39,802 bases of DNA, taken from assembly GCA_944392795.1 (NCBI GenBank), contig CALXXX010000031.1, forward strand, positions 1 through 39,802. The letters are read 5' to 3'. Numbering within the stretch: position 1 is the stretch's first letter; every line of letters begins with the position of its first letter. The notes under the pieces are model-generated. The model worked only from the letters and a program-made list of their open reading frames with translations, ran no database searches and had not been told where the DNA came from. Positions 476-39,802 of the stretch are shown here, piece after piece. This stretch comes from an uncultured Alphaproteobacteria bacterium (GTDB taxonomy: Bacteria > Pseudomonadota > Alphaproteobacteria > CAAHEQ01 > UBA3637). A program made the position numbers and the translations under genes.

Positions 476-3400
476 ATGATAAATCCAATACTTAAAACAC
501 AACGTTTTTTACCGTTGTTGATTGTTCAGTTTTTAGGTGCTTTTAATGATAACCTGTTTAAAAATATGTTATTGGTTATGATTGCCTATAAAATGACCGC
601 TCAAGCAGATATTTTGTCATCAGTGGTTGCAGGATTATTTATTTTACCATTCTTTTTGTTTTCTGCTACGGCGGGGCAGTTGGCAGACAAATATAATCGT
701 GATAAAATCGCCCGCATTTTAAAAATCACGGAATTGGTTTTGATGTTATTGGTTGGTGTTGTTTTTTACACCAAAAGTTTAACACTATTAGTTATTTTAT
801 TATTCTTAATGGGAACACAATCAGCGTTTTTTGGGCCAATAAAATATGCCTTATTACCTCAGTTATTAAAAAAGGATGAACTATTGGCTGGTAATGGATA
901 TGTTGAAGGTTCAACCTATATTTCAATTATTTTAGGGGCAGTTCTCGGAACTGTTTTGGATATAAATGTAGCAATTTTCTTGTTAATAGTATGTTCTGTT
1001 GCAGGATATCTTGCATCCACAAAAATACCACAAGCGACAGCCCCCAGACCAGAGTTAACTGTTAATAAAAACATCTTTAAAGAAACATGGCTTAATTTAA
1101 AAATGATACATGGATATCCCGCTGTTTGGAAATCCATTTTAGGCGCAACTTGGTTTTGGACTGTCGGCGCTTTGGTTTTGACTCAGATTTTTCCGTTATG
1201 TAGCCAAATTTTAAACGTGAAGCAATATGTCATCACGTTCTTTTTAATGTTATTTTCTGTTGGGGTTGGGATTGGTTCTTTAAGCTGTAATAAATTATTA
1301 AAAGGTGTTGTTTCTGCTATTTATGTTCCGCTAACCTCTTTAGCAATGGCTATCAGTGCCTATGTTTTCTATGCCCTCACAAAAGATTATGTTACTCCTG
1401 CAGAAAGTTTGGGTTTGATGGATTTCTTTGCAAATGGAGGAGTTTCATTATCTGTTTGTTTGTTCGCAATGGCTTTCTTTGGCGGTTTATACATTGTTCC
1501 TTTAAATTCCTTTATGCAAACAAAAGCACCAAAAGCATATCTGGCTTCTGTTATTGCAGGGAACAATATTGTTAATTCTTTTGGTATGGCTGTGATATCT
1601 ATTATTTCTGCTGGATTATTGGCTGTTAGTTTTACAATACCTCAGTTATTCTTAATGGTTTCTGTGGTCAGTTTTATTGTTGCAATTTATATTATGCAAT
1701 TATTGCCACATGAAACATTAAAGTCTGTTTTACGGATTATTTTAAGCCCTTTATTCCGTATTCGTATCCATAATATAACAAATTTTTATAAAGCCGGAAA
1801 ACGTGTCTTGTTAATCGCAAACCATTGTTCTTTATTGGATGGGATTTTAGTAGCTGCGTATATGCCGGAAAAAATCACTTTTGCAATTAATACGGAATGG
1901 GCGAAAAAATGGTATATTAAACCGTTTGGCATTTTGGTCGATTTATATCCACTAGATCCGACAAATCCAATGGCCATCCGTTCATTGATTGAAGAGGTCA
2001 AAAAAGATAAAAAAGTGATGATTTTCCCAGAAGGCCGTATTACAACCTCTGGTGGTTTAATGAAGATTTATGAAGGAGCCGGAGTTGTTGCTGCTAGTGC
2101 AGAAGCCAAAATTGTACCTATCCGTATCAAAGGCGCTCAATTTTCTAAATTTTCCTATATGGGCAAAAAGTTTAAAACAAGGTTGTTTCCCCACATTTCA
2201 TTGACCTTGTTAAAACCGACGACATTAACTATTCCACAGGATTGTTTTGGTCGGACCCGAAGAGCTTTGATTTCAAAACAACTCTATGACATTATGGCAA
2301 ATATGATGTATCAAACATCTGATTTAGACGAGCATTTATTTAATTCTTTATTGGATGCAGAACATACGTATGGCAAGAAACATAAGATTGCTGAAGATAT
2401 TAAACGAGTCCCGTTAACTTACAAAAAAATGATGACGAAATGCTATGTTTTAGGCCAGGCATATCAAAAAGCATTTCAGGAAGAAGAAAGACTGGGGTTA
2501 TTATTACCGAATTCTTTAGCGAACTTGGTGTCCTTTTTTGCTTTACAGAGCATAGATAAAGTGCCTGCTATGATGAATTTTTCATTGGGGCCAACACAAC
2601 TTGTTTCAAGTGGTAAAACAATAGGATTAAAAACGGTTATTACCTCTCGACAGTTTATTGAGCAAGGACATTTAGAGCATTTGGAAATAGCCTTAAAAGA
2701 TGAATTCAATTTAATTTATCTGGAAGATTTTGCATCTCAAATTTCTTTTGCGGTGAAATTAAAAGGTTTACTGTTATCTCTTATTCGCAAGAGACCTAAA
2801 AATAATGCACAAAAACCGGCCGTTGTTTTATTTACGTCTGGTTCCGAAGGCATGCCAAAAGCCGTTTTCTTATCACATAAAAACATTCAAGCAAATCGTA
2901 ATCAAGTGTTATCTGTTTTAAGTGTTAATGCATCAGATACATTTTTTAACGCGTTGCCGATGTTCCACTCATTCGGTTTATGTGTTGGATCAATTATGAC
3001 AACTTTATCGGGGATTAAAACATTCTATTATCCGTCACCGTTGCATTATCGTATCGTACCAGAATTAACCTATGACAGCAATGCAACCATTATTTGTGGG
3101 ACAGATACATTCTTATCCGGTTATGGCAGAATGGCTAATCCGTTTGATTTCTTTGGGGTTAAATACGCCATCGTTGGGGGAGAAAAACTTAAAGAAACAA
3201 CCGCAGATTTATGGATGAAAAAATTCGGCGTTCGTATTTTAGAAGGTTATGGAGCAACAGAAACAGCCCCTGTTATTTCATTAAATACACCTATGTATTT
3301 GAAATATGGCTCTGTCGGCCGATTATTACCAGGGATGGAAATGAAAATACAATCTCTTCCAGGTATTGAAAGCGGTGGTGAACTGTGGGTAAAAGGTGAT

Positions 3401-3838
3401 AATGTCATGTTGGGTTATATGAAAGCCGAAAAACCAAATGTTTTGCAACCACCTAAAAACAAATGGTATAATACGGGTGATATTGTGTCTTTGGATGAGA
3501 ATGACTTTATTTCCATTCAAGGTAGAGCAAAACGCTTTGCTAAAATTGCTGGAGAAATGGTATCTTTAACCGCAGTTGAACAAGCTCTGGAAAAACTATA
3601 TCCAAATATTTTACAGGGGATTATTACTATTCCTGATGCTAAAAAAGGCGAGCAACTTGTTTTGATAACCTCTGAAGAAAAAGCCAATACAAAAGAAATC
3701 CAAATTTATTTTAAAGAGGCTGGATTATCCGAGCTATGGGTTCCTAAGAAAGTTGTTTACATAAAACAACCGCCGGTATTAGGAACAGGAAAGTTTGACT
3801 ATCAAACAGCTAAAAAATTGATTTTGGAACAAAATTAA
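476..3838 (+). CDS. aas: MFS (LplT-like) / PlsC acyltransferase / AMP-ligase triple fusion (Aas-type)
   Basis: The 1120-residue protein combines three modules. Residues about 1-415 form a 12-helix MFS carrier like LplT, opening with a QFLGAFNDNLFKNM motif. Residues about 420-610 are a PlsC-type acyltransferase with the NHxxxxD motif at N449-D455 and FPEGR further on. Residues about 660-1115 are an AMP-forming acyl-ACP/CoA ligase with the phosphate loop TSGSEG at 787-792 and GYGATE at 924-929. In E. coli, LplT flips lysophospholipids inward and Aas re-acylates them; here both sit in one chain, an arrangement known from alphaproteobacteria. It likely acts at the inner membrane in phospholipid repair. 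The start is supported by an AGAAAGGA site just upstream. No partner gene follows on this strand for about 890 bases. Confidence 0.93.
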   Translation: MINPILKTQRFLPLLIVQFLGAFNDNLFKNMLLVMIAYKMTAQADILSSVVAGLFILPFFLFSATAGQLADKYNRDKIARILKITELVLMLLVGVVFYTKSLTLLVILLFLMGTQSAFFGPIKYALLPQLLKKDELLAGNGYVEGSTYISIILGAVLGTVLDINVAIFLLIVCSVAGYLASTKIPQATAPRPELTVNKNIFKETWLNLKMIHGYPAVWKSILGATWFWTVGALVLTQIFPLCSQILNVKQYVITFFLMLFSVGVGIGSLSCNKLLKGVVSAIYVPLTSLAMAISAYVFYALTKDYVTPAESLGLMDFFANGGVSLSVCLFAMAFFGGLYIVPLNSFMQTKAPKAYLASVIAGNNIVNSFGMAVISIISAGLLAVSFTIPQLFLMVSVVSFIVAIYIMQLLPHETLKSVLRIILSPLFRIRIHNITNFYKAGKRVLLIANHCSLLDGILVAAYMPEKITFAINTEWAKKWYIKPFGILVDLYPLDPTNPMAIRSLIEEVKKDKKVMIFPEGRITTSGGLMKIYEGAGVVAASAEAKIVPIRIKGAQFSKFSYMGKKFKTRLFPHISLTLLKPTTLTIPQDCFGRTRRALISKQLYDIMANMMYQTSDLDEHLFNSLLDAEHTYGKKHKIAEDIKRVPLTYKKMMTKCYVLGQAYQKAFQEEERLGLLLPNSLANLVSFFALQSIDKVPAMMNFSLGPTQLVSSGKTIGLKTVITSRQFIEQGHLEHLEIALKDEFNLIYLEDFASQISFAVKLKGLLLSLIRKRPKNNAQKPAVVLFTSGSEGMPKAVFLSHKNIQANRNQVLSVLSVNASDTFFNALPMFHSFGLCVGSIMTTLSGIKTFYYPSPLHYRIVPELTYDSNATIICGTDTFLSGYGRMANPFDFFGVKYAIVGGEKLKETTADLWMKKFGVRILEGYGATETAPVISLNTPMYLKYGSVGRLLPGMEMKIQSLPGIESGGELWVKGDNVMLGYMKAEKPNVLQPPKNKWYNTGDIVSLDENDFISIQGRAKRFAKIAGEMVSLTAVEQALEKLYPNILQGIITIPDAKKGEQLVLITSEEKANTKEIQIYFKEAGLSELWVPKKVVYIKQPPVLGTGKFDYQTAKKLILEQN

Positions 3839-32823: not shown

Positions 32824-33041
32824 TTTTTATATTCCTTCCTTTTTAAATTGGCCCAAAACAGGACCTTTTGCCTTAACTTTGCTCAGTATACCAAATTTCA
32901 GGAAAAAGCCTAGCAAAAAATGTAAAAAATCATGAAAAAAATAATGTTTTTTTTATTGACAAAATCTTGTTTTTTTACCTAACTAACAAGTTGTTGAAAA
33001 AACACAAAAACTAAAGCAGATTTAATTTGATGGGGATACAA

Positions 33042-36707: not shown

Positions 36708-36761
36708 ATGGATATATTAGAGAGTTTTCTCGATAACATTTTGACTTATATCTTTTTCTAA
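36708..36761 (+). CDS. Possible 17-residue ORF after the LonB gene
   Basis: Two bases after the lonB stop is an ATG with an excellent AAAAAGGAG site, which itself lies in the lonB 3' end. The frame gives MDILESFLDNILTYIFF and then a stop. It is entirely, bar nine bases, opposite the 3' end of mltG. It may be a true small hydrophobic peptide, or the remnant of a lost downstream gene whose start survived. Confidence 0.3.
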   Translation: MDILESFLDNILTYIFF

Positions 36762-37814
36762 CTGATAAGATGGTGGTAGGTCCGGTGGTATCGGAATATT
36801 CTGTATTTTTTTAATCTGACGTTTTTGACGTCGTATTTGACTATTATTTTTTATTTGTCTCCACTCTCTTACATTTTCCAAATGCTCTTTATAAGTTGAA
36901 GCAAAAATATGTCCTCCAGTCCCATCCGCGACAAAAAATAAATCATCACTAATAAAAGGATGCAAAACAGCTTCTATAGAAGCTCTTCCAGGATTAGAAA
37001 TAGCTCCAGGCGGTAAACCATAAATAACATAAGTATTATAAGGGTGCTGAACTTTTAAATCATTAGACCATAATTTACGTTTAAAAACCCCTGTCCCGTC
37101 TGTTAAAGCATAAATCACTGTCGGATCAGATTGAAGACGCATATTTTGTGCTAAACGATTCAAAAAAACAGACGCTACATGATTTCGCTCAGCGTGAATT
37201 GAGGTTTCTTTTTCTACAATAGAAGCTAAAATAACAGCCTCTTGAGGTGTTTTAAAAGGTAAATCAGAAGCTCTTTGAGGCCATAGTTCATTTAGCGTTC
37301 GATTCATGGCATTTTGCATTCTTTGAATAAGCTGCGCCTTTGTATCTCCAAAGGAATAGTAATAAGTCTCAGGCAATAAAGTCCCATTTGGAGGAATCTC
37401 AGAAATTTCTCCTTGTAAGCCATCTGCTTTATTTAATAGTTCTACGATTTGATAACTTGTCAACCCTTCTCGAATAGTAATCCTTCGAATATAAGTTTGT
37501 CCTCCTGTTAAAATATCCATAACCATTTTAGCACTGGCACGCCGCGGAATAGAATATTCTCCAGCCTTAAGAGAACCAGCTTTATTACTAGCTCTTACAC
37601 CCAAAGTAAAAATAGCAGGACTGTTAATAACTCCTTCTTTTTTCAAAAGAGAAGCAATTTTACGCAATGGCATTCCCTTTTCAATCATGACTTCTTTTCG
37701 TTCTGTTAAAGGACCTTCTGCAATAAAAAACTCATACGTTGAAAAAACACTTCCACCGATTAAAGAGGTCAATATAAAAAATAAAAGAATATATAAAATA
37801 GCCGTGCGACGCAT
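36717..37814 (-). CDS. mltG: Endolytic murein transglycosylase MltG
   Basis: 365 residues. MltG cuts nascent glycan strands and sets their length. One membrane helix (about 5-28) anchors a periplasmic LysM-like domain (RKIASLLKKEGVI, then the ITIREGLTSYQI segment). The catalytic domain has Glu201 in ASIVEKET and LQSDPTVIYAL, followed by PYNTYVIYGLPPGAISNPG. The C-terminal 35 residues are a basic extension beyond the usual end. AAAGGGGATTAA precedes the ATG. The usual neighbours fabF, acpP and pabC/tmk are not adjacent. Confidence 0.93.
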   Translation of the reverse strand: MRRTAILYILLFFILTSLIGGSVFSTYEFFIAEGPLTERKEVMIEKGMPLRKIASLLKKEGVINSPAIFTLGVRASNKAGSLKAGEYSIPRRASAKMVMDILTGGQTYIRRITIREGLTSYQIVELLNKADGLQGEISEIPPNGTLLPETYYYSFGDTKAQLIQRMQNAMNRTLNELWPQRASDLPFKTPQEAVILASIVEKETSIHAERNHVASVFLNRLAQNMRLQSDPTVIYALTDGTGVFKRKLWSNDLKVQHPYNTYVIYGLPPGAISNPGRASIEAVLHPFISDDLFFVADGTGGHIFASTYKEHLENVREWRQIKNNSQIRRQKRQIKKIQNIPIPPDLPPSYQLEKDISQNVIEKTL

Positions 37815-37940: not shown

Positions 37941-39802
37941 CTACTCATCTTCACAATATGTATAAATACCATTGCCGCATGAAGCCGTTGCTTTTGTTCC
38001 CTTACAACAAACCGATCCATATTGATATGTTTCCGGACTATCTCCACAAGCAACCACAACGACTAAGTTAGGAGTTTCAAATGGACAACAAGCATATTTA
38101 GTATAAGGTCTATCATCTTCATAAGAATAAGATGGATATTCAATCATGTTACCATAACAACATCTAGGATAATAGAAGCCGTAAGAAGGCCCTTCCATAT
38201 AAGCTCCTGTGACAGGAATACCGTTAGATACTGCCTCACAACAAGTACTAGCACCGTCCGTTCGACCTGAAATAGGAACAACTTTTCGTTCAATTATATA
38301 CTCTTCTCCTGTTTCATAATTATATCCTGGATAAGAATTACAACATTCTGGAACTTCTGTTCCCATATACGGTTCACCAGAACAACATTGTGCATTATAT
38401 CCGTATCCATCGCTGCCTGTCCAATAAGCTTTTTGCCCGACAGGACAACAAGCTTTATCACTCGTAGGATGATCCCGACCAAAATCAGAGAACTCTATAT
38501 CTACTAATTCTTTTGGAGTGGTTCCACTGGAAGGACAACATTCATAATCTGTTTGATTCGGCGGAACATATACAGATCCATCGCAACAATAACCAGAACC
38601 AGAATTCAACGGCCAATAAGCTTCTTGATCTTCTCCGCAACAAGTTAAAGGATCTTCATATTTAAAAGACTTTGCTTTTTTCAAAACGCCATTGCAACAT
38701 TGATTCCCATATTCCATATGCCAATAGGCTTTGGTAAAATCAAGATTACAACACATCCATACTTCGCCATCTGGATGTCCTGTCACTGGAAAAGCGTGTT
38801 GTCCCCAACAACATGAATAATAGCCATCTGGTTGAGGTGCTATTTCTCCATCACAACAAGAAGGATAACCATTTTCACTAGAAACATAAGCTTTTTGACC
38901 GATAGGGCAACACATTTCTCCTTGATCTAATCCGTAAATTTTGGAAACCCACATTCCGTCTGAAGTATTGCAACATCCCCAATTTCCATTCCTATCTTCA
39001 TAAGGCAGTCCAAAGCAACATTCTCCTGATGTCCCATTCCAAAATGCGTGTGGTATCGGTTCTCCGGAACAATTTAAGCAACATCCGTCCGGCTCTCCAC
39101 TCGGCTTCCCTTTTATCTCTACAGACCAATATCCTTCAGAGCCATCAGAACAAGTCTTGCCACTATTCAACAAATGTGCACTACCACATCCCGTCGGACA
39201 ATCTGTCGTCGTCGGTTCACATTCCCCCAAACAGTCTTCCTCATCAATCTTGCAACATTCAACCGCCTCATTGCAACAAGCTCCTCCGGCTATAGTGACT
39301 GTCGTACCACCCATATCTTCACAGGAACAAGCTTCTCCAGGTGTACAAGAGCAATCTTCATCGGTTAACGGACAACAGGTTCCATTCTCAACTGTACAAC
39401 ATTCTCCAGATAATTTTGGTATCGTCTGATCTTCACTACAGGTAGGACAACCTTTTTCATCTGTCATTTGAATTCGACAACCCTCACATCCGTTAAACTC
39501 TGGACAACAACCAGGAATTACCTCACAACTACAGGTCTCATAGTTCGGTATAGTGCATTCCTCATTACAAACTAAATCTGGACACTTCTCTATACAGCCT
39601 TCTATACAGCCACACTTATCATAGCCACTCGCTTCTTGCCCCTCAGGACAACTCTCTATAGAACAAGTATTCTTAATACATTGACGCAAACTCTCATCAC
39701 ATGTGTGACACTCATCACACGGCGGATCACATTGGGTAGGCTTGACACAACTACAGCTGTCCTCATCAAATACATCATCCGGTCCACAATCCGGCGCAGG
39801 AC
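37941..39802 (-). CDS. C-terminal part of a giant cysteine-rich modular protein (truncated by window edge)
   Basis: The frame is open to the right edge, so the gene begins outside; a TTG at 39689 is not the start. 619 residues are visible. Residues up to about 190 are acidic and crowded with single Cys and CxC pairs (DECHTCDES, CSCEVIPGCCPE). The remainder has CC doublets every 12-30 residues, 23 in all, in repeating modules of the type CC-x(3-5)-(K/E/H)-A-(Y/F)-W-...-G-...-CC-x-G; examples are CCPVGQKAYWTGSDG, CCGEDQEAYWPLNSG and CCNLDFTKAYWHMEYG. No membrane helix or anchor is seen at the C-terminus, which ends in GIYTYCEDE. Such a protein must be disulfide-bonded outside the cytoplasm. I recognise no named family. 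Confidence 0.85.
   Translation of the reverse strand, partial: PAPDCGPDDVFDEDSCSCVKPTQCDPPCDECHTCDESLRQCIKNTCSIESCPEGQEASGYDKCGCIEGCIEKCPDLVCNEECTIPNYETCSCEVIPGCCPEFNGCEGCRIQMTDEKGCPTCSEDQTIPKLSGECCTVENGTCCPLTDEDCSCTPGEACSCEDMGGTTVTIAGGACCNEAVECCKIDEEDCLGECEPTTTDCPTGCGSAHLLNSGKTCSDGSEGYWSVEIKGKPSGEPDGCCLNCSGEPIPHAFWNGTSGECCFGLPYEDRNGNWGCCNTSDGMWVSKIYGLDQGEMCCPIGQKAYVSSENGYPSCCDGEIAPQPDGYYSCCWGQHAFPVTGHPDGEVWMCCNLDFTKAYWHMEYGNQCCNGVLKKAKSFKYEDPLTCCGEDQEAYWPLNSGSGYCCDGSVYVPPNQTDYECCPSSGTTPKELVDIEFSDFGRDHPTSDKACCPVGQKAYWTGSDGYGYNAQCCSGEPYMGTEVPECCNSYPGYNYETGEEYIIERKVVPISGRTDGASTCCEAVSNGIPVTGAYMEGPSYGFYYPRCCYGNMIEYPSYSYEDDRPYTKYACCPFETPNLVVVVACGDSPETYQYGSVCCKGTKATASCGNGIYTYCEDE

Follow-up and report, generated by a model that had tools for sequence, protein, structure and literature searches.

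The stretch of DNA analysed here, called the window, is contig C31 of an alphaproteobacterial genome (the source genome, G000; 1.29 Mb in 41 contigs) over its full length of 39,802 bp. Close to one end of it, an open frame read from the minus strand has its stop at 37941 and continues unbroken to 39800, where it runs off the contig (Table 1). The 619 visible residues of the window protein include 81 cysteines and 23 CC doublets, against a mean of 9.3 and a maximum of 18 doublets in 5000 shuffles. The core pattern CC-x(3-9)-A[YF]-x(5-18)-CC is found five times in residues 229-619, compared with 0.015 times in shuffles (maximum 2), and six aromatic cores (AFW252, AYV304, AFP336, AYW358, AYW394 and AYW458) can be distinguished. 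Depending on whether the definition is strict or relaxed, this gives five or at least six CC...A[YF]W...CC modules. The initial annotation, made from the letters alone, had counted 23 doublets and at least six imperfect modules preceded by an acidic CxC-rich segment: the first number is exact, the six cores bear out the second, and the segment is indeed there (residues 1-228). It had also assigned the module to no known family, in agreement with our sequence searches of Pfam, NCBIfam and PDB, in which the window protein had no family match. Elsewhere in the window, one protein of 1120 aa (positions 476-3838) unites MFS, acyltransferase and AMP-binding domains; it is probably an unremarkable fusion for lysophospholipid recycling.

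Table 1. Features of the window and copies of the second family that carries the CC/AYW module
Feature	Position	Strand	Basis
3' part of modular type IVb prepilin gene (very probable), 619 codons + stop	37941..39800	-	frame open at contig end; full-length orthologues
Acidic CxC-rich segment, residues 1-228, between missing pilin module and CC rod	39117..39800	-	translation
CC/AYW module region, residues 229-619, predicted continuous beta-hairpin rod	37944..39116	-	AlphaFold2
Module 1, residues 240-277, CC...AFW...CC...CC	38970..39083	-	segmentation of translation
Module 2, residues 297-331, CC...AYV...CC...CC	38808..38912	-	segmentation of translation
Module 3, residues 330-351, CC...AFP...CC	38748..38813	-	segmentation of translation
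Module 4, residues 350-388, CC...AYW...CC...CC	38637..38753	-	segmentation of translation
Module 5, residues 387-422, CC...AYW...CC...CC	38535..38642	-	segmentation of translation
Module 6, residues 451-487, CC...AYW...CC...CC	38340..38450	-	segmentation of translation
mltG (YceG-like), downstream neighbour, syntenic also in G002 and G017	36717..37814	-	Pfam YceG E=3e-83; synteny
39-bp site without pilin gene, between TPR-like gene and dnaN	33001..33039	.	blastn blocks vs G002 L071
Second-family copies	L186 (G000:C19:73327), L104 (G000:C27:32820), L170 (G000:C8:364), L062/L064/L066 (G002)		

Full-length orthologues of the window gene were found in two genomes, G017 (L072:1227-3572; 63-64% identical to the window protein) and G002 (L071:3878-6523; 57%), and a scan of the genomes' contigs returned none other than these. 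They encode 781 and 881 aa, respectively, and thereby support the expectation of a much longer protein. Both are flanked by fabF upstream and mltG downstream, and the window gene likewise has mltG as its neighbour; the fabF orthologue expected to flank its 5' end was not found in the MAG, which yielded only paralogues of 35-41% identity. Both orthologues start with a prepilin leader (G|RSMIEMLAVLAVIG), followed by a type IVb-pilin-like domain and then by the cysteine-rich part. At their N-terminus, the leader is short and the motif GRSMIE[ML]L leads into a hydrophobic helix; the globular module that comes next has a single conserved pair of cysteines. The class III leader G|xxxxE and the hydrophobic N-terminal helix are shared by the complete paralogues described below; in the window gene this part, with the pilin module, lies beyond the contig end and is missing because the contig breaks inside the gene. 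Given that the orthologues carry leader and pilin module in the same neighbourhood, the window gene very probably encodes the C-terminal portion of a modular prepilin, and its own leader, promoter and homopolymer tract would resemble theirs. Two proposals of the initial annotation can be judged from this. Export to the cell surface gains support from the leader of both orthologues and of the complete paralogues, that of the window gene itself falling outside the assembly. A free-standing giant fibre or sheath does not: the protein appears instead to be the C-terminal portion of a type IVb prepilin that is modular, about 780-880 aa long and one of dozens per genome.

The relationship of the N-terminal module to type IV pilins was examined by profile and by structure. 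Of 12 rows obtained with the pilin-module profile (A3) against PDB, 11 were type IV pilins (best E 0.008). The N_methyl (PF07963) and TIGR02532 models match at the expected place, with 11.6-16.2 bits (below the cut-off of 21.2) and 10.6-12.4 bits (below the cut-off of 16.3), respectively. The best structural matches of the predicted module are TcpA (Z 5.1, rmsd 2.7, 72 residues aligned) and S. Typhi PilS (Z 5.0, rmsd 2.4, 75 aligned), both with modest Z scores and from a low-confidence part of the model. Contig C40 of the source genome encodes TcpQ, a secretin, PilO, a T2SSE ATPase and a T2SSF membrane protein, then a prepilin of the same family at the contig edge; judged by these genes, the assembly machine of the source genome is a TCP/R64-type type IVb pilus locus. 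On its other side the pil genes are adjoined, in opposite orientation, by VirB4-, VirB3- and VirB2-like genes (L073, G000:C40:8000-20673), the VirB3 and VirB2 matches being below cut-off. A prepilin peptidase gene is present in the source genome, as is a gene for DsbA, in line with the idea that a Dsb enzyme would accompany such a cysteine-rich protein.

The window gene belongs to a large family. With a complete source-genome paralogue as query, matches were obtained in all 33 genomes of the same bacterial family, and the pilin-module profile gave 18 to 57 matches per genome in seven genomes of 1.2-1.5 Mb, counts that include partial copies at contig ends, so that exact gene numbers are uncertain. 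This holds for the source MAG in particular, since its contigs C9, C20, C22, C23, C24, C28, C35 and C40 end inside the conserved pilin module. When the search was widened to 385 sampled genomes of the class, 24 gave a match; most of the frames matched outside the bacterial family are short, about 150-300 aa, as would be expected of ordinary pilins. A search of 31 paralogues for the AYW/CC module in its strict form showed that it is largely confined to the window's orthologue group, and it is therefore the pilin module, not CC/AYW, that defines the family as a whole. Among other heads, one paralogue (L071:11499-14678) has five DUF7107 stretches, and another (L091:3299-5119) a borderline EGF-like stretch.

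The two parts of these proteins differ greatly in conservation: median identity within G017 and G023 is 84-86% for the pilin module (86% in G017) and about 25% for the heads. Recent gene conversion was considered as the cause of the conserved module and mostly dropped, because four-fold degenerate sites agree in only 44% (1848/4155) between the pilin modules of G017. As synonymous sites have not been homogenised, most copies are old, and purifying selection on the module explains most of the conservation. Between the two orthologues of the window gene, identity is about 59-60% for pilin modules and heads alike, and the pilin module of the G017 orthologue reaches up to 88% identity to paralogues within that genome.

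Comparison of syntenic sites suggests that such genes are gained and lost as units. The counterpart in G002 of the 39-bp window site that lies between a TPR-like gene and dnaN is occupied by an insert of 3355 bp, in which a modular pilin gene stands behind a poly-G promoter of its own; the flanking blastn blocks pair L071 6564-11355 with window 37832-33040 and L071 14711-16000 with window 33000-31709. Similarly, a gene lying between the rplM/rpsI genes and gpsA in G001 is absent from the syntenic site of the source genome (about 160 bp vs 2.9 kb). The 3' 1.74 kb of this G001 gene is 84% identical to a source-genome gene that lies elsewhere and has a different pilin module. For this pair, local recent exchange is likely, as it is for a 210-bp stretch inside the acidic segment of the window gene, which is 92% identical in DNA to a paralogue on contig C15.

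For residues 229-619, AlphaFold2, working from three sequences, gave an all-beta stack of hairpins with a mean pLDDT of 80.2. The model thus predicts a continuous beta-hairpin rod, in place of the tandem of separate small disulfide knots first imagined. A Foldseek search with the rod returned no row at E below 0.001, with TNF-receptor-like cysteine rods among the insignificant rows, and a VIA structure comparison gave no convincing relative (best Z 2.5); the predicted rod is possibly a new disulfide-rich fold. The same CC/AYW module is also carried by a second family, made of proteins of about 150-300 aa whose Sec-like leader is broken by a run of poly-C (PPPP) and precedes the module. One of these copies (L104) lies directly downstream of the DsbA gene of the source genome.

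Homopolymer tracts are a recurrent feature of the pilin genes. Poly-G runs of ten or more, tallied in the source genome, G002, G017 and G023, number 11, 59, 69 and 9, respectively, the run lengths in MAGs being uncertain. We asked how many are followed by a pilin start at most 480 bp downstream, observed and expected values alike being restricted to the pilin starts listed. In G017 this is the case for 29 of 69 runs, against 1.1 expected; the corresponding values are 12 of 59 against 0.39 in G002, 4 of 9 against 0.10 in G023, and 2 of 11 against 0.05 in the source genome. Among 51 distinct runs of nine or more, at loci whose sampling was biased to the pilin family, 18 have TTGAC or TTGAT at most 14 bases ahead (background 3.4%). 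Many such runs come with a TATAAT-like box (spacer 17-19), and the tract often stands between TTGACA and that box. Both orthologues of the window gene carry a poly-G run. Other copies of the family have a poly-C run inside the leader codons, and 6 of the 10 examined are without an in-frame start. This layout looks like the anatomy of phase variation, transcriptional in the former case and translational in the latter. Over all four genomes, fewer than half of the poly-G tracts precede a listed pilin start, and further phase-variable genes, beyond the listed pilins, are therefore likely.

The explanation we consider probable is that the window gene encodes the exposed part of one member of a phase-variable repertoire of modular type IVb pilins, which bear a disulfide-stitched beta rod as adhesin. 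It is drawn from sequence: the leader and pilin module of the orthologues, the machinery, the copy number, the conserved module with its variable heads, the tracts and the syntenic presence or absence of genes. In this scenario, the chromosomal prepilin peptidase would remove the leader, and assembly of the prepilin would fall to the TCP/R64-like type IVb pilus machine. Its C-terminus of about 600 residues, oxidised in the periplasm, would form a long disulfide-stitched beta rod, to be displayed by the pilus, most likely at the tip, as an adhesin; the adhesin role offered in the initial annotation is thus retained as the likely function. The family would consist of dozens of dispersed single-gene cassettes, each joining the conserved pilin module to a highly divergent, mostly cysteine-rich head. 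Many copies could be switched at random, by slippage of poly-G in the promoter spacer or of poly-C in the leader codons, so that each cell would present a different subset of heads. Processing, display, adhesion and switching of these pilins are all inferred.

Several other readings of the same data were weighed. As in R64 and TP114, the heads might choose mating partners, the pilus and the neighbouring type IV secretion genes acting jointly in conjugation or DNA transfer. PilV variants are indeed recipient-specific adhesins (PMC9045228), and the VirB-like genes next to the pil locus on C40 would fit; however, two of these three matches are below cut-off, and the family is dispersed over the chromosome and does not form a single shufflon locus, such that we find this role unlikely. 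Another reading is a variable surface coat that would hide the pilus from phages or host antibodies, and for which diversity and switching would matter but ligand binding would not. Highly divergent heads on a conserved carrier, many copies per genome and switch-like tracts are what it predicts, yet a pure escape coat has no need of a head module kept across genera, at 53-64% identity, as in the window's orthologue group. We hold it to be improbable.

The prepilins might also feed a type II secretion-like pseudopilus, or stay anchored in the inner membrane, with a periplasmic cysteine part engaged, for example, in metal binding. The leader is weakly similar to GspG/GspH models and the cysteine content is high, but TcpQ and PilO mark the machine as one of the TCP/R64 type, and the paired CC doublets, aromatic cores and predicted beta rod suit disulfides better than metal, which makes this very improbable. 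Finally, the tracts themselves could be sequencing or assembly artefacts, in which case the genes would not be phase variable and the modular pilin reading would stand without its switch. Two-colour Illumina chemistry is known to produce artefactual poly-G, and for several tracts the nearest contig end is no more than about 250 bp away. Yet several MAGs have tracts in mid-contig, and these favour a single gene family and are in register with -35 and -10 boxes; we give an artefactual origin hardly any credence.

A repertoire of phase-variable modular pilin adhesins would be of interest beyond this locus. Known switching of pilus tips involves single genes or one shufflon locus, whereas here genomes of 1.2-1.5 Mb appear to carry dozens of separately switchable modular pilins, amounting to a combinatorial surface system in which single cells could display different surface attachment proteins. 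This gives a testable account of attachment and diversification in these uncultured bacteria, and the family accounts for the assembly breaks at these genes. Searches of the literature that combined these bacteria with prepilins and phase variation yielded nothing relevant, and we found no description of the combination, the copy number or the head module in the literature searched, from which subscription journals were mostly absent, so that novelty is unproven. The broadest version of the claim could go either way: that a small-genome lineage of Alphaproteobacteria has a large, dispersed repertoire of independently phase-variable type IVb adhesins with undescribed disulfide-laddered beta-rod heads, gained and lost between species as cassettes of promoter and gene, the head module being also borne by phase-variable secreted proteins.

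Each element of this system has a counterpart elsewhere. The predicted rod would be, like TNF-receptor-type rods, an elongated stack of disulfide-linked hairpins, although no sequence or fold match to them is significant. Granulin-type cysteine-rich rods are likewise elongated stacks of disulfide-linked hairpins. Among pilins, CofB is a large minor pilin found at the tip of the type IVb pili of enterotoxigenic E. coli (PMC8179133). Our proteins would resemble it as large type IVb minor pilins with extra C-terminal domains, their tip placement being inferred, but these domains are a beta-repeat and a beta-sandwich in CofB and cysteine-rich rods here. Modular type IV pilins are also known as tip adhesins, for example PilB and PilC of Streptococcus sanguinis (PMC8179133), in which, as proposed here, a small N-terminal pilin module displays a bulky grafted module on the filament for adhesion. 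However, the modular pilins of S. sanguinis number one or two and carry vWA or lectin modules, whereas dozens per genome are found here, in a type IVb system, with cysteine-rich heads that match no known domain.

Homopolymer phase variation is described in the gonococcus, with poly-C in the fetA promoter and poly-G in the pilC coding sequence (PMC5320596). The tracts reported here, read from assembled sequences, are placed in the same way, either between the -35 and -10 boxes or as putative frame-changing tracts in the 5' coding region, but differ in that both types occur on one modular pilin family. The R64/TP114 thin pilus, with its shufflon and alternative PilV tips (PMC9045228), is comparable both in its machine (PilO, a TcpQ-type protein and a secretin) and in PilV itself, a minor pilin of type IVb whose N-terminus is conserved and whose C-terminal part, the adhesin, exists in alternative versions. 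In that system, however, the heads are swapped at one locus by a site-specific recombinase, whereas here they belong to separate, dispersed genes, each with its own tract.
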